From positions 1-34,698 of IMG/VR virus record IMGVR_UViG_3300010430_000275: 34,698 bases of DNA, one strand, 5' to 3'. This document shows positions 5,793 to 32,774 of this stretch, in pieces; position 1 is the stretch's first letter; each line of letters begins with the position of its first letter. The notes beneath the pieces were generated by a model. It ran no database searches. It saw only the letters and a list, made by a program, of their open reading frames with translations, and was not told the DNA's origin. The position numbers and the translations under genes were made by a program. The stretch is from a virus.

Positions 5793-5867
5793 CTATATAT
5801 ATAAATATATATTTCTGCCCGGCTGCGGTCAAGCGAAACTATATATAAATATATATTTTTTTTGGTG
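5793..5867. promoter_or_regulatory. AT-rich twin repeats in hicA/methyltransferase divergent region
   Basis: Two nearly identical AT tracts, CTATATATATAAATATATAT (5793-5812) and CTATATATAAATATATATTT (5839-5858), lie 46 bp apart between the divergent hicA and methyltransferase starts. Each contains the palindrome AAATATATATTT, and the second ends in a long T-run. In GC-rich DNA these stand out as promoter and operator elements, probably for HicB autoregulation and perhaps for rightward transcription of the methyltransferases. Confidence 0.55.
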
Positions 5868-5882
5868 CAAGGGGGGGTGCCG

Positions 5883-6716
5883 ATGATACACAAGGCACCG
5901 CCTTCAGCCGTCCGCATGGAACGCATCGGGGATGCCGTGCTGATCCAGGGCGATTGCGTGGCCATCCTGCGTGAACTGATTGCGGCAGGGCTATCGGTTT
6001 CCCACGTCATAGCGGATCCGCCCTATGAGGATGTTTACCACGAAAAATTCGGGGCGATCTGCCGGCGTGACGGCTACAGCGATGCCTACCCGGATTTTGA
6101 GGGCGTGGACTCGATCAGGGATGATGCCGCGGCGGGTGCCGTCCAGGTGTCCGCCGGGTGGGTGCTGTTCTTTTGCCTGGCGGAAGGCGTGGCCGCATGG
6201 CGCGATGCACTCCAGCGGGCGGAAGCCAAATACAAGCGCTGTTGCTTTTGGGTGAAACCCGATGCGCGCCCGCAATTCAACGGCCAGGGGCCGGCCTCGC
6301 CCGGTGAGTGTTTTGTGACGGCTTGGGCCGGCAAGGGCCATGCCCGGTGGAATGCCGGCGGCAAAAAGGGCGCCTATACGCACAATCAATCAAGCCCGGA
6401 ACGCCGGGCAAAGGATAAGGACAAGCGGCACCCGACCGAAAAGCCGCTTTCGCTCATGTCCGAAATTCTCCGCGATTTCACAAATCCGGGGGAATTGATC
6501 CTGGATTCCTTCATGGGTTCCGGTAGCACCGGCGTGGCAGCGCTGAAGATGGGCCGGCGGTTTATCGGTATCGAAAAGGATGCCCGGTATTTTGACTTGG
6601 CGGTCGAACGCATCACCGCCGTGGTCCAGGACCGCGAACAACAGCCCACCATGTTCGAAGTGCCCCGCGCCAAGTCGCAAAAGCTCAAACTGGTAGGGGG
6701 CAAAATGAATGCTTGA
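5883..6716 (+). CDS. DNA adenine-N6/cytosine-N4 methyltransferase
   Basis: The protein has 277 residues from the ATG at 5883, which follows an AGGGGGGG site; a TTG seven codons earlier is less likely. Motif IV is DPPY early (about residue 46, IADPPYEDVYHEKFG). The SAM-binding motif is FMGSGSTG near residue 216, preceded by HPTEKPLSLMSEILRDFTNPGELILDS. This DPPY-first order is the beta class. The middle (YKRCCFWVKPDARPQFNGQGP and HARWNAGGKKG) matches a phage/prophage family I recognise from alphaproteobacteria. Target site is not predictable here; it may protect phage DNA from restriction or imitate host methylation. Its end overlaps the next methyltransferase by 8 bp. Confidence 0.9.
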   Translation: MIHKAPPSAVRMERIGDAVLIQGDCVAILRELIAAGLSVSHVIADPPYEDVYHEKFGAICRRDGYSDAYPDFEGVDSIRDDAAAGAVQVSAGWVLFFCLAEGVAAWRDALQRAEAKYKRCCFWVKPDARPQFNGQGPASPGECFVTAWAGKGHARWNAGGKKGAYTHNQSSPERRAKDKDKRHPTEKPLSLMSEILRDFTNPGELILDSFMGSGSTGVAALKMGRRFIGIEKDARYFDLAVERITAVVQDREQQPTMFEVPRAKSQKLKLVGGKMNA

Positions 6717-8346
6717 TTTGGGAACAACCGCGCCGGGCGCGCCGCTTGTTATCGATTGCTTTGCAGGTGGCGGCGGTGCCTCCACCGGTATTGAGGCCGC
6801 ATTGGGCCGCGCGGTGGATGTGGCCATAAACCATGATCCGGAAGCGATCGCCATGCACCGCGCGAACCATCCGGCAACCCGGCATTTCTGCAAATCCGTC
6901 TATCAGGTGTCACCGCATGAGGCCACGCGCGGGGCGCCGGTGGCGTTGGCCTGGTTCTCACCGGACTGCAAGCATTTCTCCAAGGCCAAGGGCGCGCGCC
7001 CGGTAAAGCGCACGGTGCGTGATTTGGCCTGGACGGCGGTTGAATGGGCGCGCCGGGTGCGGCCCAAGGTGATCATTCTGGAGAATGTGGAGGAGTTCCA
7101 GAAATGGGGGCCGGTGCTGGAAGACGGGCGCCCTTGTCCCGATCGCCAGGGCCAAACCTTCACGGAATTTGTGAAGGCGCTGCGCCGGCAGGGCTATGCC
7201 GTCGAATGGAAAGAGCTACGCGCCTGTGATTATGGCGTGCCCACCATCCGCAAGCGCCTGTTTCTGATCGCCCGGCGCGACGGGCTGCCGATCACCTGGC
7301 CGGATCCCGCCCATGGCCCGGGCCTGAAGCCCTACCGGACTGCAGCGGAAATCATCGATTGGTCGTTGCCGTGCCCGTCCATATTCGATCGGAAGAAACC
7401 GCCCGTGGAGGCCACCTGCCGGCGCATCGCCAAGGGCATCGTGCGCCATGTGCTGGAAGCGGAACAGCCTTTCATCGTTCCGGTGACGCATCAAGGCGAT
7501 GCACGCGCCTGGCCGATGGCCGAACCGCTCCGCACGGTGACAACCGCGAACCGCGGGGAGTTTGCCCTGGTATCGCCCACCCTGGTGCAAACCGGCTATG
7601 GCGAACGGCAGGGGCAGGCACCGCGGGTGCCGGGCCTGGATAAGCCGCTGGGCACGGTGGTGGCCGGCGGTGCCAAACATGCGGTGGTTTCCGGTTTCTT
7701 CGCCCGTCAATTCGGGCGCAGCATCGGGCACGGCTGCGCGGATCCGCTGGGCACCGTCACCGCCGGCGGCAGCGGCAAGACGGCCTTGGTCGCGGCCTTC
7801 ATGGCGCAGCACAACACCGGCGCGCCTTCCCGATCGGCAGCGGTGCCGCTTTCCACGCTCACCGGGCGCTGCACGCAGCAACAGGTTGTGGCCGCTCACC
7901 TCACCCATTTCCATAGTTCCAACGTGGGCAGTGGCGGCGACGTGCGGCAGCCGCTCAAGACAATCACCGCCGGTGGCCGGCATGCCGGCTTGGTGGCTTC
8001 CTTCCTGGTGAAGTATTACGGCGAAGGCGGACAGTGGCAGGGGTGCGGCGAACCGCTGGGCACCGTCACCACCCGTGACCGGTACGGCTTGGTCGTGGTG
8101 GATATCCAGGGCGCATCCTATGTGCTTGCGGATATCGGCATGCGGATGTTGACGCAGCGCGAACAATTCCGCGCCCAAGGATTCCCGGAAAGCTATGTGA
8201 TCGGTGACAGGCCCGCGGACGGCCTGAAGCTGACCAAGACGGCGCAGCAAAAGATGTGCGGCAACAGCGTTTGCCCCGGCCTGGCGGAGGCCCTAGTGCG
8301 CGCGAACGCGCCGGCGGAAGCCTTCGCGGAAAGGGTGGCGGCGTAA
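6709..8346 (+). CDS. C5-cytosine DNA methyltransferase
   Basis: The protein has 545 residues. Motif I is FAGGGGAS (18-25). The catalytic loop is SPDCKHFS (84-91) with C87, where most C5 enzymes have P-P-C-Q; ENV (125-127) is motif VI, and the C-terminus has QREQFRAQGFPESY and QQKMCGNSVCP (motifs IX and X). Between, residues about 272-462 hold six imperfect repeats with the core P-L-x-T-V-T-x-x-x-(x)n-A-L-V, the likely target-recognition part. A TAGGGGG site precedes the ATG. Paired with the upstream enzyme, it would give the phage two base modifications. A role in evading host restriction is the usual expectation. Confidence 0.9.
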   Translation: MLDLGTTAPGAPLVIDCFAGGGGASTGIEAALGRAVDVAINHDPEAIAMHRANHPATRHFCKSVYQVSPHEATRGAPVALAWFSPDCKHFSKAKGARPVKRTVRDLAWTAVEWARRVRPKVIILENVEEFQKWGPVLEDGRPCPDRQGQTFTEFVKALRRQGYAVEWKELRACDYGVPTIRKRLFLIARRDGLPITWPDPAHGPGLKPYRTAAEIIDWSLPCPSIFDRKKPPVEATCRRIAKGIVRHVLEAEQPFIVPVTHQGDARAWPMAEPLRTVTTANRGEFALVSPTLVQTGYGERQGQAPRVPGLDKPLGTVVAGGAKHAVVSGFFARQFGRSIGHGCADPLGTVTAGGSGKTALVAAFMAQHNTGAPSRSAAVPLSTLTGRCTQQQVVAAHLTHFHSSNVGSGGDVRQPLKTITAGGRHAGLVASFLVKYYGEGGQWQGCGEPLGTVTTRDRYGLVVVDIQGASYVLADIGMRMLTQREQFRAQGFPESYVIGDRPADGLKLTKTAQQKMCGNSVCPGLAEALVRANAPAEAFAERVAA

Positions 8347-9226: not shown

Positions 9227-9472
9227 ATGCCATACGACTACATCGCGCACTACTACGGCACCCGGTTTAAGCCGGGGCAGCGCGTGATTTTCACGGAGGA
9301 TGGCCGACGCGGCACGGTCCTGAAGCCTGCCGGTGATCCGCAATATGTGGATGTAAAATTTGATGCCGGCGGCGAAGGCCCTTGCCATCCAATGTCATTG
9401 GCGTTTCCGCCGGTGGAGGAACTGCCGCACATCGATCCCAAACACCTGGCCAAACTGCGCGCCCGCGCATAG
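9227..9472 (+). CDS. Small beta-rich (KOW/SH3-like) protein
   Basis: The protein has 81 residues from the ATG at 9227, preceded by GAGGGAA; a GTG or ATG further upstream overlaps the previous gene and is rejected. FKPGQRVIFTEDGRRGTVLKPAG, then YVDVKFDAGGEGPCHP, resembles the G-x-x-V turn and strands of small SH3-like barrels. This is a fold-level guess, not a family call. It lies 14 bp before dnaB, probably the same transcript. Confidence 0.6.
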   Translation: MPYDYIAHYYGTRFKPGQRVIFTEDGRRGTVLKPAGDPQYVDVKFDAGGEGPCHPMSLAFPPVEELPHIDPKHLAKLRARA

Positions 9473-9486
9473 CGAAAGATAGCCGC

Positions 9487-11031
9487 ATGAGTCTCTTGGC
9501 CGATCGCCCGGAAGAATTGGAACCGCCGCACCACCTGGAGGTGGAGGCAGCGCTATTGGGCGCGGTGATGCGCAGCCGCGATGCCTTGGCCCTGGTGCAT
9601 GACCGGCTGGAGGCTGCCTACTTCTATTCACCGGAGCACCAACGGATTTGGGAAGGCATTGAGCATCTGGTGGAGCGCGGGTCCGATGTGAACGCCACCA
9701 ACCTTTCCAGGTGGGCGGATGCCGATGGCTTGCTGAGCGAGGTGGGCGGCAGCCGCTATCTGTTCGAATTGGTGGCCAATGTCGTGGCGGTGATCAATGC
9801 GCGCGACTATGCCGAAACCGTGGCGGATTACTGGCGCCGGCGGGAAGCCATTGCCGTGCTGGGCCGCACGGTGGATGATCTATACAACCCGGATCTTGGT
9901 TTTACCGATCGGCGCAGCTCCGCCCAAGTGATCGAAGAGGCGGAAGCGGCCCTGGCCGCGGTGGTCGACCACGGGCAGGCTGTATCCGCCGTCCAGGCGG
10001 CGCCGGTGGCGGTGGAACAGGCCATGGCCTCGCTGGAGGCTGCCTACCGCAACCGTTCGGAAGTTACCGGCGTGCCCAGCGGCATTGATGGCCTGGACCG
10101 TCTGACGGCGGGACTGCAGCCGGCCAATATGATCGTGGTGGCCGGCAGGCCTTCCATGGGTAAAACCGCCTTTGGCGCCGGCATCGCCTTTGCCACCGCC
10201 TGGCGCATCTTCCACCAAGACCAGCTTGCGAGTGAATCCGGCGCCGGTGATCTGGCCGGCGGCTGCGTCTATTTCGTTTCGGCGGAAAATTCGGCCGATT
10301 TGTGCGTGAAGGAACAGCTTTCCCGCATGACGGGAATTCCGAAGCAGGAACAGCAACGCGGCACGATCGTGCAAGGCGAGTTCGACACGTTGCACGGCGC
10401 CGCGGAACAGGTGGGCAAGTGGCCTATCTACATCGATGACTCGCCGGATCTAACGCCGGCACGCATCAAGGCGCGGGTGGCGCGCGTGCATCGGCGCAGG
10501 CCGGTGCGGCTGATCCTGGTGGATTATCTGCAATTGCTGAGTGAACCGGCCTTTCGGGGTGATCCCGTCCATGAGGTGGGCGAAATCTCCAAAAGCATGA
10601 AGAGCATGGCCAAGCGGTTCAATTGCCCGGTGGTGGTGTTGTCGCAGCTTTCCCGGAAGGTGGAGGGGCGGGAAGACAAGCGCCCGCAAATGTCTGATCT
10701 GCGCGAGTCCGGACAGATTGAACAGGATGCGGATCTGATCGTGTTTCCCTTCCGTGAGGAATACTACCTGGCCAAGGAAGAGCCGCAACAGAAACCGAAT
10801 GAGGCGGATGGGGTTTTCCTGGAGCGCCGGGATAGGTGGCTGCGCCGGCTGGAGGAGCGCCGCGGGCGCGTGGAATTGATCGTGGCAAAGAACCGGCACG
10901 GCCCTACCGGTTCGGTTGATTGCCGTTTTGAGGGGCATGCGCTCCGCTTTTCCGATTTTCAGGATCCCGAAATGCCGGATCCGGTGGCGCGCCGGCGCGC
11001 GGAAGAGCGGAATGCAGAAGAAGAAAAATAG
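9487..11031 (+). CDS. dnaB: DnaB-like replicative helicase
   Basis: The protein has 514 residues from the ATG at 9487. Residues 13-120 are the DnaB N-terminal helical domain (HHLEVEAALLGAVMRSRDAL). The RecA-like ATPase begins near 190 with GVPSGIDGLDRLTAGLQP, Walker A GRPSMGKT (220-227) and Walker B RLILVDYLQLL (341-351), followed by DLRESGQIEQDADLI and a final R-G-R-V-E-L-I-V-AKNRHGPTG segment. It unwinds the phage fork as a hexamer. Length is a little above the usual 450-470, partly from an insertion after Walker A (DQLASESGAGDLAGG); no intein blocks are seen. Translation is probably coupled with the small gene before it. Host primase probably cooperates, as none is encoded in the window. 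Confidence 0.95.
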   Translation: MSLLADRPEELEPPHHLEVEAALLGAVMRSRDALALVHDRLEAAYFYSPEHQRIWEGIEHLVERGSDVNATNLSRWADADGLLSEVGGSRYLFELVANVVAVINARDYAETVADYWRRREAIAVLGRTVDDLYNPDLGFTDRRSSAQVIEEAEAALAAVVDHGQAVSAVQAAPVAVEQAMASLEAAYRNRSEVTGVPSGIDGLDRLTAGLQPANMIVVAGRPSMGKTAFGAGIAFATAWRIFHQDQLASESGAGDLAGGCVYFVSAENSADLCVKEQLSRMTGIPKQEQQRGTIVQGEFDTLHGAAEQVGKWPIYIDDSPDLTPARIKARVARVHRRRPVRLILVDYLQLLSEPAFRGDPVHEVGEISKSMKSMAKRFNCPVVVLSQLSRKVEGREDKRPQMSDLRESGQIEQDADLIVFPFREEYYLAKEEPQQKPNEADGVFLERRDRWLRRLEERRGRVELIVAKNRHGPTGSVDCRFEGHALRFSDFQDPEMPDPVARRRAEERNAEEEK

Positions 11032-26519: not shown

Positions 26520-29437
26520 TGGCGTTCGTCGCACCTGTCATTGCGTCACTTGCCGCGGGGGCATTCACTTCAGCCATTGGCCTTTCCGGCATCGCGGCCA
26601 CCATCGTTTCCGGGGTGATTAAGCTGGGGGTCGGGCTCCTAACCTCCGCTTTGACGGCCAAGCCAACCCAATCGCTTCCCAATTTGGCCGGCTTCTCCGC
26701 GGAGGCAGTAAATCGAACGCAAGCGCTCCGGCAGCCGATCACCGCGGCCAAGATGATCGTGGGCGATGTGCGGGTCGGCGGTGCGCTCACCTTCGTGGAA
26801 TCGACAAACAACAATCACGATATTCACCTGGTTACGACAGTGGCCAATCATACTGTGGCGAGTTTCGAGTCGTTCTATTTGAACGCGGATCCGATTTACC
26901 CTGAACAGCTTGCGGCGGATGGGTGGGTGAGTTCCGGCAAGTACAAAGACAAGGTGCGGATTCTTTGGGATGACGGATCCGCAACCGGCCAGCCTTTCCC
27001 GGAACTGGTGGAAGAATGCGAGGATTGGCTGGAAACCCACCGGCAGCAGGGGCATGCCAAGTTTGTTGTCACGCTCAAGTTTGATGATGATCTGTTCCCT
27101 ACGGCAATTCCCAACCCTTCCGCCCGGGTGCGTGGGCTCATGCCCTATGATCCGCGAACCGGCCACACCCGATATTCGCCTAATGGGGCCTTGGTCACGC
27201 CGGCATATATGACGCGGCCAACAAAGGCGGGCGGCATGGGGGTGAAGCCGTCCGCAATTGAGGTGGTCCAGCAAATTGCCGCGGCCAATATCGCTGAGGA
27301 AATCGTGCCCTGCCGTGCTGTGTCGCATGAGGTTGCGGCGATCGATACGGCGGCAAACGCGATTGATGTTGATCAGGATGTGTGCCTGTTTCAAAGCGGC
27401 GACCGCGTGGCGGTGTCTGTAAAGGACGGCGATTTGCCGGAAGGCCTGGCGGCATCCACGGGCTATTTCGTTACGGTGTTGCGGGAAACCGCGCTGGATA
27501 GTCTGAAATGCCGGATTGCCTTAGCTGCCGACTATGACGCAGCGATTGCCAAAGGGCCTTACATCGATATCACCGGCAGCGGATCCGGTACCATTACGAT
27601 CACCAAGACGGGTGAGCCGCGTTATTCGAGTAGCGGCGTGATCGAATCCGACCGCAAGCCGGTCGATATTCTCAACGATTTGCGCTCCAGCTTTGCCGGC
27701 AGAATTGTGCCAGTGAGCGGCACCTGGCTAATCAAGCCTGGCGCGTTCGAACTGGCGTCACCGGTGTTTGATGAAGGCGATTTCCGGGCTGCCATCCGCG
27801 TTGTCACCAAACGGTCGCGCCGTGAACGGTACAACGCGGTGAAGGGTGTTTATGCGAGCCCGTTGAACCTTGGGAATCCTTCCGACTATCCGCCGGTGAC
27901 AAGCGCTGTTTTTGAGGAAGAGGACGGCGGGGAAACCGAGTTTGGAAACCTGCCGCTGCCTTTCACCGGGCGCCCGGCCACGGCGCAGCGCATCGCCAAA
28001 ATCGAATTGAACAGGCACCGCCGGCAGCAGCAGGTCGTTGTGCCTGTGAACCTTCGCGGGTTCCGCGCTGTGGCAGCCGGCTATTGCCGTGTGACCTATT
28101 CCAAGTGGGGATGGGATGAAAAGGTCTTTGAGGTGGTGGATTGGTCCCTGGCGCCCGATCGCGATGCCAACGGCACGCCGGTGCTTGGGGTGGATCTGCA
28201 ATTGCAGGAATCGGATGCGGCAGTGTTTGATTTTGATCCGGAAAGTGATGAGGTGGTGCCCAAGCCTGCCGCCCGCACAACCCTGCCCAGCTCCACAAGC
28301 ATCGTGCCGCCCGGCATTCCCGCGATCACGGAAGAGCTTTACGAAACGCGCGGCGGTTCCGGTGTAAAGGCCCGGGCCATTGTCACCACCTCCTCACCGG
28401 ATGGGCGGGTGTCCGGTTATCAATGGCGATTTAAACCCACCGGCGCTGCCGCCTTTACCAATGCCGGCGTTACGCCGGATGGCCGGTTGGTGATCGATGA
28501 CGTGAAGCCCGGTACCTACACAATCCAGGTGCGGGCAATTACCACGTTCGGCAAAAAAAGCGATTGGGTGGAGCGCGCCGCGGTAGAAGTGGCAGGGTTG
28601 AGCGCTGAGCCGGCGGACGTTTCCGGCCTTTCCCTCACGCAGGTGGCTGGCATCGCGGTGATGCGCTGGGATAGGCATCCTGATCTGGATGTGCGCAAGG
28701 GCGGTGAACTGCACTTTCGGCACTCGCAGGATCCAGTTTCCGGTACTTGGGAAACCTCGCAAAGTATTGGCGAGGCGGTTGCCGGAAACGAAACGCAAAC
28801 CATGCTGCCGCTGAAGCCTGGCCTTTATCTTGTGAAGGCGCGGGATGCGGTGGGAACGTGGTCGACCAATGCCGCCACGGTTGTGGCGACGGGAACGCAG
28901 GCGGTGGCTTTTGCCAATGTGACAAGCCTTTCCGCGCATCCTTCCTTCACCGGCACAAAAACAGACACGGTGGCCGTATCCGGGGTTTTGTCGATCGCCG
29001 GCGCCGGCACCGTTGATGACATTCCGGACGTTGATTCCGTGACAAGTTGGGATGCTGAGGGCGGAGTGAAACCGGAGGGCGTCTATCAATTTGCATCCGG
29101 CGCGGATCTTGGAACCGTGAAGCGCGTGCGCCTGCGGTCGGTTCTATCAAGCCAAATCGTGAACGTCTTTGACTTCATCGATCAACGGTCGGGGCTTGTT
29201 GATAGTTGGGTCGATTTCGACGGCGCGCCGGATGGCAGCGACGGGGATTTACTCATGGAGTTCCGGCAAACGGCTGACGATCCGGCAGGCACACCGGACT
29301 GGAGCGATTGGACTCGATTCGAAAGCGCGGAGACTGAAGCCCGTGCCTTCCAATTCCGCGCCCGGCTGATCAGCCGGCAGGAATCCGTAAACGTCGAATG
29401 CGACGAAATGACCGTGCAAATTGATGAGGTGGCCTAA
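26519..29437 (+). CDS. Tail tip / host-specificity protein J-like
   Basis: The protein has 972 residues from the ATG at 26519. Residues 1-55 have two hydrophobic glycine-rich helices (VIASLAAGAFTSAIGLSG, TIVSGVIKLGVGLLTSALTA) near the start, as in related tip proteins. The hub domain follows (PITAAKMIVGDVRVGGALTFVE, RVRGLMPYDPRTG, RVVTKRSRRERYNAVKGVY). From about 615, fibronectin-III-like beta domains appear (RGGSGVKARAIVTTSSPDGRVSGYQWRF, TYTIQVRAITTFGKKSDWV). It forms the central spike or fibre that contacts the cell. Confidence 0.9.
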   Translation: MAFVAPVIASLAAGAFTSAIGLSGIAATIVSGVIKLGVGLLTSALTAKPTQSLPNLAGFSAEAVNRTQALRQPITAAKMIVGDVRVGGALTFVESTNNNHDIHLVTTVANHTVASFESFYLNADPIYPEQLAADGWVSSGKYKDKVRILWDDGSATGQPFPELVEECEDWLETHRQQGHAKFVVTLKFDDDLFPTAIPNPSARVRGLMPYDPRTGHTRYSPNGALVTPAYMTRPTKAGGMGVKPSAIEVVQQIAAANIAEEIVPCRAVSHEVAAIDTAANAIDVDQDVCLFQSGDRVAVSVKDGDLPEGLAASTGYFVTVLRETALDSLKCRIALAADYDAAIAKGPYIDITGSGSGTITITKTGEPRYSSSGVIESDRKPVDILNDLRSSFAGRIVPVSGTWLIKPGAFELASPVFDEGDFRAAIRVVTKRSRRERYNAVKGVYASPLNLGNPSDYPPVTSAVFEEEDGGETEFGNLPLPFTGRPATAQRIAKIELNRHRRQQQVVVPVNLRGFRAVAAGYCRVTYSKWGWDEKVFEVVDWSLAPDRDANGTPVLGVDLQLQESDAAVFDFDPESDEVVPKPAARTTLPSSTSIVPPGIPAITEELYETRGGSGVKARAIVTTSSPDGRVSGYQWRFKPTGAAAFTNAGVTPDGRLVIDDVKPGTYTIQVRAITTFGKKSDWVERAAVEVAGLSAEPADVSGLSLTQVAGIAVMRWDRHPDLDVRKGGELHFRHSQDPVSGTWETSQSIGEAVAGNETQTMLPLKPGLYLVKARDAVGTWSTNAATVVATGTQAVAFANVTSLSAHPSFTGTKTDTVAVSGVLSIAGAGTVDDIPDVDSVTSWDAEGGVKPEGVYQFASGADLGTVKRVRLRSVLSSQIVNVFDFIDQRSGLVDSWVDFDGAPDGSDGDLLMEFRQTADDPAGTPDWSDWTRFESAETEARAFQFRARLISRQESVNVECDEMTVQIDEVA

Positions 29438-29838
29438 TGTCTCAAAGTGATCTGGTAATTGAAAACGCCGGCGGTGCCTCTTTCCGGGCGGATGTGCAGG
29501 GCGCTATCCAGGCGGTCGGTACAAACCAAGCGGGCGGCACTGCGCCAGGCACTCCCTATCCCAATCAATGGTGGGCGGATACGGCAAACAACCGTTTGAA
29601 GCGCAGGAACAGTGCCAACAATGCGTGGATCGATTGCGGCCCGTTGGAAGGCCCTACGGATCTTTCCGAAGTCACCGATAAGACGGCGGCGCGTGCCAAT
29701 CTTGGCCTTACGATCGGCACCCATGTAGCCGCATACGATGCGGCCAAAGGGTCGAACGGGAACGGCAACCGCACCGTTTCCACCTCCGCGCCTTCCGGTG
29801 GCGCTGATGGTGATCTTTGGATGGTGGTGGCTGCGTAA
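29437..29838 (+). CDS. Small fibre-associated protein
   Basis: The protein has 133 residues and starts in the TAATG overlap with J. It reads QSDLVIENAGGASFRADVQGAIQAVGTNQAGG, then PNQWWADTANNRLKRRNSANNAWI, the common fibre or side-tail motif of phages, and ends Gly/Ser-rich with SAPSGGADGDLWMVV. It probably trimerises with or adds to the tip. Next gene starts in overlap (TAATG). Confidence 0.75.
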   Translation: MSQSDLVIENAGGASFRADVQGAIQAVGTNQAGGTAPGTPYPNQWWADTANNRLKRRNSANNAWIDCGPLEGPTDLSEVTDKTAARANLGLTIGTHVAAYDAAKGSNGNGNRTVSTSAPSGGADGDLWMVVAA

Positions 29839-30704
29839 TGCCTGAAACCTATGTGCATAACGGTGGCAGCTTTGCGGCGTTAAAGCAGGTCTTCGTGCGT
29901 GACGGTGGCGCCTGGAAAGAGGCCACCGAAATGTGGCTGAAGGACGGCGGGGTCTGGAAACTGGTGCATGAAAACACTGTTTCCGTTGTGATCGCATCCG
30001 ACGTTGACGGGTGGGTGCTGACGGAAGAGGGGATTGAAATCATTGATCCCATTTTCCTGGAAATCACCGTGAAGGCCGGCGCAACCGTCAAAGGGCGTGC
30101 AGGGCGGCAATACTCACTGGATTTGGCGGGGCTTAATTCCTCCAGCACCGTGAAACTGGTGGTGGAGGCCGGCGGCGCCATTATCGGTCGGGGTGGAGCC
30201 GGCGGGGCGGCAAACGGGTCCGTTGGTGCGGCGGGTCAAAGCGCCATTTACACCCGCAACGCCATCACGATCGAAAACTATGGAACCATTGCCGGCGGTG
30301 GCGGCGGCGGTGGTGCCGGCGGGCGGGGCTCTACCTCCAGCTCATACGATTGCAATTGCTCTACCAATGGTGAAGGCGAAACCGTTTGCGAAACCTGCAC
30401 GGCTACAACCTACCATCAAGGCGGCGGTGGTGGCGGGGGCGCTGGTAGCCCCGGCGGTGCTGGTGGTACGGGAAAGGTTGCCGGGTTTCCGGGAACCACG
30501 TCCGGTGGCACCGGAGGTGCTGGTGGTACGAATGCCGGCGTCGGCGGCGACGGTGGAGCATACGGTGTAACTGGCAGTGCAGGATCGAACGGCAACAGCA
30601 CCAACGGCGGCGCGGGCGGCGCGTCTGGCAACTGGATAGACGGCAGCTCCTACATATCCAGCCAAAGCGGCGACGGCGACACATTCGGCCCGGCGGTCAA
30701 CTGA
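29838..30704 (+). CDS. Poly-glycine tail adhesin
   Basis: The protein has 288 residues from the ATG at 29838. Residues 1-110 include repeat-like HNGGSFAALKQVFVRDGGAWKEATEMWLKDGGVWK and a beta domain. From about 112 to 280 the sequence is dominated by Gly-rich motifs (GRGGAGGAANG, AGGGGGGGAGGRG, GGGGGGGAGSPGGAGG), as in poly-glycine-II receptor tips of T4-like gp38 adhesins. A Cys-rich loop interrupts it: C172, C174, C184 and C187. A 15-bp DNA repeat (30456-30470 and 30516-30530) encodes part of it. It likely determines host range. Confidence 0.85.
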   Translation: MPETYVHNGGSFAALKQVFVRDGGAWKEATEMWLKDGGVWKLVHENTVSVVIASDVDGWVLTEEGIEIIDPIFLEITVKAGATVKGRAGRQYSLDLAGLNSSSTVKLVVEAGGAIIGRGGAGGAANGSVGAAGQSAIYTRNAITIENYGTIAGGGGGGGAGGRGSTSSSYDCNCSTNGEGETVCETCTATTYHQGGGGGGGAGSPGGAGGTGKVAGFPGTTSGGTGGAGGTNAGVGGDGGAYGVTGSAGSNGNSTNGGAGGASGNWIDGSSYISSQSGDGDTFGPAVN

Positions 30705-31321
30705 TGGATCTGGTCTTGTTGTCCGGTGGCCCTGATAGCGCGTTTGCGTTGGAATGGGCCCTGTCTAAGACGGATGCACCGATTGCTACCCTATTCGTGG
30801 GGCAAAGGACGCCGGCCAGCATACCCGAACGGGTGGCCGCGGCATCGATCGCGGAGCATTTGGGGGCCAAGTATCGCCCGGTGCTCCACCACGTAATGGG
30901 TATGGCTTGGCCCAACAATCTGCCGCCGCATTACAACGTTACGCTGGCCTATGCCTCCGCCGGCCTGATTTTTCAGCTTGGCGGCGTTCGGCGCATCTAT
31001 CGCGGCGATAGCAGGGAGGAACAAGTGGGCACCCGTCCGGAATCCGAAGGCATGAACCTTTCCGGTGAGGCGGTGTTTAACCATTGCCTGGCCGGCCTTC
31101 TATCGGTGCCTGGCGCCGATCGGATGGCAGGGGCGCCGATCCGCATGCCGGAGGTAATGTTGCCCGGCAAACCTCACTCAAAGCGGCAATACATCCGGGA
31201 AATGGATCCTGTTTTAAGGGACTTGGTTTGGTCCTGCCAATATCCGCGCATGAAGGCGGGGCGGGCCTTTCCCTGTGGCGAGTGCCGCAAATGCGAAATC
31301 TTGGAAGAGGCAAGACAATGA
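30704..31321 (+). CDS. QueC-like PP-loop ATPase in tail cassette
   Basis: The protein has 205 residues. PP-loop motif SGGPDS is at 7-12, VGQR near 33, and WPNNLPPHYNVTLAYASAGLIFQLGGVRRIYRGD (about 70-105) aligns with the nucleotide/substrate part of QueC. Four cysteines, C178, C191, C194 and C197 (PCGECRKC), form the QueC-type zinc site. Cellular QueC converts CDG to preQ0 with ATP. No other 7-deazaguanine gene (QueD, QueE, FolE, DpdA) is in the window. It starts in overlap with the adhesin gene and overlaps the next by ATGA, so it is made with tail proteins. Target may be nucleotide, DNA or a protein; unknown. Confidence 0.85.
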   Translation: MDLVLLSGGPDSAFALEWALSKTDAPIATLFVGQRTPASIPERVAAASIAEHLGAKYRPVLHHVMGMAWPNNLPPHYNVTLAYASAGLIFQLGGVRRIYRGDSREEQVGTRPESEGMNLSGEAVFNHCLAGLLSVPGADRMAGAPIRMPEVMLPGKPHSKRQYIREMDPVLRDLVWSCQYPRMKAGRAFPCGECRKCEILEEARQ

Positions 31322-32067
31322 ACCATTACGCGCAAGTGTCGGCTACCGGTGTGACGTTGTGGGGGCCTGGAGCGCTGCCGCACTTCATCAACGATAAAGA
31401 CGGCAACCCGATCGATTTGCACAAAATGACCGATGCGGCCAAGGAACAGCTTGGCATCTACAAGGTCCGTGAAATCGGCAAGGCGGACTATGATGAGCGG
31501 TTCCAGACGCAGGAACGGCAATACGGTGTGGAGGATGGCTGGCCAGTTTATCGCTATTCCTACCCGTTCCGCGACGGTGCCCGGGCGATGATGGCCCGTG
31601 CCGTCGATGAGTTGGCCGGCATTGAACGGGATAAGTTCCTTACGCTCACGCCGGGGCAGGATGAGGAATACAAGGCCGCGGCTGAGGAGGCCGCAAAGGC
31701 GCTGAGGGAAATGGAACTTGGTTCCGTGCCGCGCGCCGATGATTACCCGTTCCTGTCCGCGGATATCGGAATCACCATCAACCCGGGCACCGGCCTGCCC
31801 GTGGCATCGATCGAAGAGGCCGCGGCGGTCGTGCAGGGCGTGCGGGATGTTGCCTTTGCGGAAATGGCGGTGATCCGCCGGCGCCGCAAGGAAGGCAAGC
31901 GGGATGTTTTGGCCGCCGGCGGTGATGCGGAGGCCCTGGCCGTGCTCCAGGCCCTGGATATGACGGTGGCCGAAATCTTCATGGTGTCGGATCCCACGCC
32001 GCAACCGCTTGCCGACGCCGCGAAATTCAATCCGAACCTGAAACCGCTGCCGGAGGGTGTTGAATGA
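31318..32067 (+). CDS. Fibre-associated/assembly-like protein, unknown function
   Basis: The protein has 249 residues from the ATG at 31318; longer upstream readings overlap the QueC-like gene. It starts MNHYAQVSATGVTLWGPGALPHFIND and GVEDGWPVYRYSYPFRDG, a style I associate with DUF4376-type tail fibre assembly proteins, with helical A/E-rich middle and end (EEYKAAAEEAAKAL). Position between adhesin, QueC-like enzyme and methyltransferase suggests it belongs to the fibre module. The family call is uncertain. Confidence 0.55.
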   Translation: MNHYAQVSATGVTLWGPGALPHFINDKDGNPIDLHKMTDAAKEQLGIYKVREIGKADYDERFQTQERQYGVEDGWPVYRYSYPFRDGARAMMARAVDELAGIERDKFLTLTPGQDEEYKAAAEEAAKALREMELGSVPRADDYPFLSADIGITINPGTGLPVASIEEAAAVVQGVRDVAFAEMAVIRRRRKEGKRDVLAAGGDAEALAVLQALDMTVAEIFMVSDPTPQPLADAAKFNPNLKPLPEGVE

Positions 32068-32774
32068 TGAAAGAGGCATTTTCTGCATGGGCGCCAACGA
32101 TCGATCGGCTGCGCCCTTCGCCGGATGTTTCCGTGGCCGAAAAGGTTAGCGTGCTCCGCGCGCTGGAATTGGAGCCCGGTGGCCCGTCGATCGATTTGGG
32201 CTGTGCGGTGGGCATGTGGACTGCAGCGGCGGCCCGGCTGGGCTATGTGGCGGAGGGGGTGGATTTTTCACCGGAAATGGTGGCCCGGGCGGAGGAGTTA
32301 TTTCCGGATTCCACCTTCCTGGAGGGTGACGTGATGGCCCTGGAACCGTGCGGCAAGTATCAGCTCGTTACCGCCATGGGAAACCATGTCACGTATCACG
32401 CGGATCTTATCGCCTTCATGCAGGTGGTGCGGGGGTTGTTGGCGCCCGATGGGGTGGCGCTGATCGCCTTGCAGGATTTCGCGCCGCGCCTGGCGCATGG
32501 TGCGGGCAACTACCTGCCGGCGCCTTTCATTGTGAATCATCCGGACGGCACGGAAACGATCGTGGTGGAGCGCCGGCGCTTCACGGATCCGGAAGCGCGG
32601 GCCATGTCGGTGGAATTCCACATGCTTCCCAGTGAGGCGCCGGCGGCATCAATTCGCTATACCGGCTGGGCTTGGACGCTGAAGGATGTGAAAGCGGCGG
32701 CTGAGGAGGTCGGCTTATCCGGTGCATGGTGCCATCCGGTCAAGTACATGCCGGTCCTGAAGCTGACGCGATAA
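32064..32774 (+). CDS. Class I SAM-dependent methyltransferase in tail cassette
   Basis: The protein has 236 residues; the first of two consecutive ATGs (32064) is 6 nt after GGAGGG and overlaps the previous stop. Motif I is IDLGCAVGMW (43-52), followed by VDFSPEMVARAEELFPD and FLEGDVMALEP, the Rossmann methyltransferase order. No DNA methyltransferase DPPY or PC motif is seen, so the substrate is probably a small molecule, sugar or protein. It closes the fibre module with the QueC-like enzyme; both might modify the tail adhesin or a host surface molecule. Confidence 0.85.
   Translation: MMKEAFSAWAPTIDRLRPSPDVSVAEKVSVLRALELEPGGPSIDLGCAVGMWTAAAARLGYVAEGVDFSPEMVARAEELFPDSTFLEGDVMALEPCGKYQLVTAMGNHVTYHADLIAFMQVVRGLLAPDGVALIALQDFAPRLAHGAGNYLPAPFIVNHPDGTETIVVERRRFTDPEARAMSVEFHMLPSEAPAASIRYTGWAWTLKDVKAAAEEVGLSGAWCHPVKYMPVLKLTR

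Follow-up and report, generated by a model that had tools for sequence, protein, structure and literature searches.

A QueC-like gene between a poly-glycine adhesin gene and a tail-assembly-like gene in phage contigs: a possible ligase for virion proteins

The window analysed here is the whole of the IMG/VR virus record IMGVR_UViG_3300010430_000275, a linear contig of 34,698 bases. Its tail operon contains a gene for a QueC-like PP-loop protein, located between the gene of a poly-glycine gp38-type tail-fibre adhesin and a tail-assembly-like gene. The adhesin stop and the QueC-like start share one nucleotide (TGATG), and three further divergent contigs show this adhesin/QueC-like junction. Tentatively, these features suggest a phage-specific PP-loop ligase of the QueC/Cap9 family that acts on a virion protein, with the poly-glycine adhesin as the most likely one in the window; we infer catalysis, a protein substrate, and the adhesin as the target.

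The QueC-like protein contains an SGGPDS loop at residues 7-12 and four cysteines (C178, C191, C194, and C197), with the spacing C12CxxCxxC versus C8CxxCxxC. The PHROG_1550 'QueC-like' profile matched significantly (E=7.9e-13). The Pfam QueC profile scored 22.9 bits against a cut-off of 22, with coverage limited to residues 3-58; the NCBIfam QueC equivalog profile scored 21.7 bits against a cut-off of 150.3. The AlphaFold2 model, based on a 12-sequence alignment, has a mean predicted local distance difference test score (pLDDT) of 87 and a predicted template modelling score (pTM) of 0.86, with residues 110-118 uncertain. The top Foldseek match in the PDB was Cap9 in the modified-partner complex (9nto_B, E=6e-6, probability 1.00), followed by asparagine synthetases. 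Sequence profiles gave a different order, with QueC 3bl5 (1.5e-15) and 2pg3 ahead of Cap9 9nto (4e-11). The fold belongs in the QueC/Cap9 group; sequence alone gives no placement with Cap9. An earlier note on this DNA had given the gene coordinates, the loop, and the four cysteines exactly, and the QueC-like identity it proposed is backed by the profiles and the model.

Across the 12-protein alignment, the SGGxDS loop, Lys160, and the four cysteines never vary, which argues for retained catalysis. These invariant residues also speak against a non-enzymatic or accessory factor of tail-tip maturation, such as a scaffold or chaperone, and against a gene carried as neutral cargo. Such a role would fit the rare occurrence of the gene and its fast divergence, most family members being only 20-30% identical to each other; it is considered unlikely.

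The canonical QueC motifs were also inspected in the alignment. According to a QueC-family survey (PMC13329287), YxQxHxxE, VPxRN, and YPDC form the QueC catalytic signature, and the E. coli enzyme cannot do without Y35, R99, and Y131. None of the three motifs is intact in the window protein, where the corresponding stretches are VGQRTPAS, PHYN, and TRPESE; they are also not intact in the adhesin-linked relatives. With the canonical substrate motifs lost and the equivalog score far under the cut-off, the protein from 30704-31321 is, as judged from its sequence, no QueC orthologue. Neither residue of the deazaguanine-recognising Tyr/Asp pair of Cap9 is kept in the alignment, although the model is weak at residues 110-118 and the exact counterparts are uncertain.

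A neighbourhood search for QueC-like genes beside phage adhesins had been suggested in the earlier note. Viral contigs were scanned with the QueC-like enzyme, and the adhesin was left out of the search. The scan identified L012/L017, L013, and L018, in which the adhesin/QueC-like junction recurs. The stop/start overlap between the poly-glycine adhesin and QueC-like genes is 1 nt in the window and L013, and 4 nt in L012 and L018. L012 and L018 keep the full order of fibre, poly-glycine adhesin, QueC-like, and tail-assembly-like genes; the proteins of this arrangement share merely ~25-47% identity among the window, L012, and L018. In L012 and L018, the SAPSGG..DGD.W ending of the fibre protein also recurs immediately ahead of the adhesin. 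In L012, L018, and L013, tail-assembly-like homologues adjoin the QueC-like gene, and the QueC-like relatives likewise match PHROG_1550. A further scan with the tail-assembly-like family found the same three contigs only, using patterns derived from those very sequences.

A single tail operon of the L013 contig (5806-12346) contains two poly-glycine genes together with three QueC-like genes that differ from one another. The start of one QueC-like gene lies within the stop of a gp38-type adhesin gene, and the other two follow a poly-glycine gene and a tail-assembly homologue; it looks as though every adhesin were paired with an enzyme of its own. Two AT-rich marine-type phage contigs, L025 (3490-8217, near-duplicate L026) and L027 (210-6124), have a poly-glycine gene, then at least two 2-oxoglutarate-Fe(II)-oxygenase-type genes, then a QueC-like gene; this could be a modification island behind a tail gene. 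In the maximum-likelihood tree, the window, L012, L018, L025, and L027 proteins cluster together with moderate support (88/88), but the branches are long, and such joins may be false. All five have a same-strand poly-glycine gene upstream of the QueC-like gene.

A poly-glycine gene lies directly upstream in 3 of the 11 contigs found with the enzyme (window left out). The Poisson-binomial chance of this was ~0.008 per contig and 0.015 per gene, as estimated from rough gene calls, with guessed background rates for contigs having no poly-glycine gene, and ignoring both the stop/start overlaps and the four-gene order. The estimate is modest and was taken as an indication only. Scanning viral contigs with the two closest syntenic proteins added no new contigs, and single-protein scans with P0001, P0002, and P0003 gave no matches there; tblastn of P0001 and P0008 against plasmids also gave none. 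The sole locus from the genome-contig scan, L002, was rejected, as its match is antisense to other genes.

By analogy with QueC and Cap9, the enzyme would adenylate a carboxylate with ATP and then join this to ammonia or an amine, one of the reactants being a protein. The adhesin would thus be modified chemically while the tail tip is made: either a small acid might be attached to an adhesin amine, or an adhesin carboxylate might be amidated. A donor other than a deazaguanine is conceivable, since the residues that recognise deazaguanine are missing. The downstream tail-assembly-like protein may keep the adhesin in place while it is being modified or afterwards. For Cap9 itself, the known reaction is adenylation of a carboxylate, which is then attached to the glycine at the N-terminus of the partner protein (PMC11996544, PMC13279940). 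This N-terminal-glycine rule does not hold here, so the reaction proposed is not an exact counterpart of that of Cap9.

Several observations weigh against modification of the adhesin. A general N-terminal-glycine rule, as for Cap9 and QatB, was ruled out, because among the adhesin, fibre, and tail-assembly proteins only the L012 adhesin has a Met-Gly start. Comparison of the adhesin C-termini revealed no clear common motif, and the candidate target adhesin has no known modified residue. The exact arrangement was found in few contigs only, and the linkage statistics are modest and based on rough gene calls. Family members in L015 and L023/24 lie near terminase or head genes, with no poly-glycine or Gly-Glu partner in view; members in the Ackermannviridae and jumbo phages lie in non-structural regions.

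The PHROG_1550 proteins Muddy gp16, FF47 gp16, and PIS136 ExsB are of the same divergent lineage (25-30% identity), and are likewise encoded among or behind virion structural genes. Unlike the window gene, which follows a poly-glycine adhesin gene, they follow capsid or major-tail genes with Gly-Glu tails. In Muddy (L032), the gp9 capsid protein (6494-7483) and the gp15 major tail protein (9388-10029) have the C-termini GGGSGEGEGESE and GGGGEGEGEGE, respectively. In FF47 (L004; 2459-3451, 5343-5984), the capsid and major tail proteins both have Gly-Glu C-termini. The QueC-like gene directly follows the major tail gene in both of these mycobacteriophages. In Saccharomonospora phage PIS136 (L003, 5382-10442), a protein annotated as hypothetical and ending in GEGEGEGGEGGEG, is probably the capsid protein. 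Two genes further on come a QueC-like gene and an ATP-grasp gene annotated as cyanophycin synthetase; these might be a pair of ligases acting on one tail. An unrelated environmental phage (L020, 2631-4959) has a capsid protein ending in GSGEGEGEGEEI (GEGEGEGEEI), with a QueC-like gene directly after it.

The Gly-Glu tails beside QueC-like genes suggest, by analogy, that the substrates may have in common a glycine-rich stretch within a virion protein. A broader reading is that a phage branch of QueC-fold ligases installs a new covalent modification on poly-glycine adhesins and, in another branch, on the Gly-Glu tails of capsid and major-tail proteins, as kin to the deazaguanylation of bacterial immunity; this reading is regarded as doubtful. 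The adhesin of the window has no Gly-Glu tail. Gly-Glu tails as an exclusive marker of QueC-like genes were ruled out by L131 (3485-4561, reverse complement), which, among the (GE)4 matches listed, encodes a 358-amino-acid protein ending in GGEGEGEGE with no QueC-like gene in the stretch examined; the motif is also lacking in the L015 and L024 contigs. The link to adhesin genes is not universal in the family: other placements of the QueC-like gene are before the terminase gene (L023/24) and after a DUF1983 tail protein gene (Vibrio 1.188).

The enzyme might instead act on a small molecule or on a glycan of the host surface, as in WbpG-type sugar-acid amidation, and the receptor change would block superinfection; the adhesin would then be a neighbour in a host-specificity cassette. 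Cluster 5 of the QueC family includes WbpG-type lipopolysaccharide amidotransferases (PMC13329287). There is also a weak fold match to the Legionella N-acetyl sugar amidotransferase 8wex (E 0.07), and a methyltransferase gene follows in the window. However, the conserved slot between the adhesin and tail-assembly genes, with its overlap, points to late virion expression, and the operon has no glycosyltransferase or membrane partner. The WbpG cysteines are arranged as CxxC(x)6CxC, versus C12CxxCxxC here. Glycan or small-molecule modification is thus rather unlikely, and modification of the adhesin is preferred.

Comparison with the immune systems bears on a further alternative, an anti-defence or defence part akin to Cap9 or QatC, such as a competitor for deazaguanylation substrates, which drifted into the tail operon. 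Cap9, the deazaguanylation ligase of the type IV cyclic oligonucleotide-based antiphage signalling system (CBASS), is the nearest fold (9nto). It shares with the window protein the compact ~200-amino-acid QueC fold, the SGGxDS loop, the Cys4 zinc site, and the operon link to a single protein gene. The window protein differs in being without the YxQ and RN motifs and the Tyr/Asp pair that recognises 7-carboxy-7-deazaguanine (CDG), and its partner is a poly-glycine adhesin lacking the N-terminal MGGS. QatC (qatABCD) also has the QueC fold with the CDG-recognising residues replaced, and acts on a protein partner; its Tyr/Asp pair is lost (PMC13279940). QatC differs in its size (~400 amino acids, versus 205 here), its N- and C-terminal extensions, and its C(x)19CGxCxxRR motif. 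The lack of the CDG-recognising pair, as in QatC, fits a defence origin. Against it, no match to the CD-NTase (SMODS) family or to the QatA-type KAP NTPase family was found in the record (qatB and qatD were not specifically searched). The gene is in a late position with translational overlap, and the repeated ties of the family are to virion, not defence, genes. An anti-defence or defence role is improbable.

The last alternative starts from a host intermediate: the enzyme would make or use a 7-deazaguanine base (preQ0 or 7-amido-7-deazaguanine, ADG) destined for the DNA of the phage or for tRNA. This is very improbable. It would agree with QueC membership by fold and Pfam, and other phages carry complete QueC/D/E/FolE/TGT sets. 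The window protein shares the fold, ATP loop, and zinc site of canonical QueC (3bl5; E. coli); it differs in lacking the catalytic motifs, whose key residues are essential in the E. coli enzyme (PMC13329287), in having no pathway genes nearby, and in a score far under the equivalog cut-off. No match to the QueD, TGT, radical-SAM (QueE), and FolE families was found in the record, and every search matched in the control genomes. For DpdA, the TGT family was used rather than a DpdA-specific model, and gave no match in the record with positive controls in 14/14. The Ares TGT, QueD, QueE, and FolE proteins as phmmer queries gave no match in the scanned relatives. The absence of QueD, QueE, FolE, and DpdA noted earlier is borne out by these family searches, and the complete deazaguanine DNA-modification set, which the earlier note had named as a possible refutation if found elsewhere, is not present. 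Its other proposal, modification of virion DNA using a host intermediate, is disfavoured by the missing deazaguanine-recognising residues and the lack of a TGT/DpdA-type gene; DNA modification by the QueC-like enzyme is unlikely.

Other QueC-like matches are of a different kind. Those in Rosebush-type mycobacteriophages and Rhizobium phage RHEph05 were set aside as genuine QueC genes within pathway sets. In L021 (5390-6423) and L022, a QueC-like gene with GRN and FPDC motifs adjoins a YhhQ-like gene (queuosine precursor transporter type), and is more like true deazaguanine metabolism. L014 (7491-12044) and L016 (5641-11115) encode QueC-fold proteins with SAG(I/V)EST replacing SGGxDS; these genes adjoin epimerase-like and asparagine-synthase-like genes, and in L016 also a sulfotransferase-like gene.

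The survey divides the QueC family into canonical QueC, QatC, Cap9, LarE, PfkB-linked proteins, WbpG-type amidotransferases, GMP synthase, and three archaeal clusters, and the covered part of its main text mentions no group from phage tails (PMC13329287). Known work on the family concerns defence and metabolism; no literature link between QueC-like genes and tail adhesins was found under partial coverage, so that novelty is provisional. The gp38 loci of T-even/S16-type phages also have a gp38-type adhesin gene and then a tail-assembly-type gene; unlike them, the window has a QueC-like gene in between, and no such case was found in the literature searched. If the adhesin is modified, host recognition would hinge on a final covalent change that cannot be read from the genes, and bacteria (CBASS, Qat) and their viruses would both employ the QueC fold to modify proteins. 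The two-branch reading, if true, would mean that host recognition and the virion surface are tailored after translation. The Muddy-type branch is present in a culturable mycobacteriophage, which makes the idea directly testable.

All five genes of the operon (29437-32774) have one orientation and overlapping ends (Table 1). The two junctions after the QueC-like start are ATGA-type overlaps, so the overlapping reading frames reported earlier from the adhesin to the methyltransferase were borne out.

Table 1. Genes of the tail operon in the window
Feature	Coordinates	Strand	Evidence
Short fibre protein, 133 aa, C-terminal SAPSGGADGDLWMVVAA, upstream partner of the adhesin	29437..29838	+	PHROG_29834 E=1.5e-16
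Poly-glycine gp38-type tail-fibre adhesin, 288 aa	29838..30704	+	Pfam GP38, PHROG_2056
QueC-like PP-loop ATP pyrophosphatase, 205 aa, SGGPDS and Cys4 zinc site	30704..31321	+	Pfam, PHROG, model, Foldseek
DUF4376/tail-assembly-chaperone-like protein, 249 aa	31318..32067	+	Model and Foldseek
S-adenosylmethionine-dependent methyltransferase, class I Rossmann, 236 aa, accessory	32064..32774	+	Pfam Methyltransf_25

The adhesin was assigned to the gp38 type because it scored 31.6 bits with Pfam GP38, above the cut-off of 25, and it also matches PHROG_2056 'tail fiber protein; host specificity' (E=2e-15). Its glycine content reaches 54% within 50 residues. The adhesins of the relatives scored 31.5 bits (L013) and 20.3 bits (L018, under the cut-off of 25) with Pfam GP38. 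The gene downstream of the QueC-like gene had been called a fibre-type gene. The model of its product (pLDDT 80, pTM 0.62) matched DUF4376 and 'phage tail assembly chaperone' proteins in Foldseek, and a DUF4376/tail-assembly-chaperone-like assignment fits better.

The Rossmann methyltransferase named in the earlier note is real (Methyltransf_25, E=1e-11). As a constant partner of the QueC-like gene it was ruled out: it is missing from L012 and L018, both with the same gene order, and a working QueC-like/methyltransferase pair is therefore unsupported. Of the proposal that this pair modifies tail proteins, the tie of the QueC-like gene to adhesin genes stands, since the junction recurs and the nearest solved fold is protein-modifying; the methyltransferase pairing does not.

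The record also contains a siphovirus head and tail set, including terminase, portal, capsid, tape measure, distal tail, and J-like proteins. The 'prophage' label in the earlier note was not established for this linear contig. DNA methyltransferases and a DnaB-type helicase are encoded upstream of the head and tail set. In this early region (window 5862-8346), genes for an N6/N4-type and a C5-cytosine-type DNA methyltransferase are adjacent.

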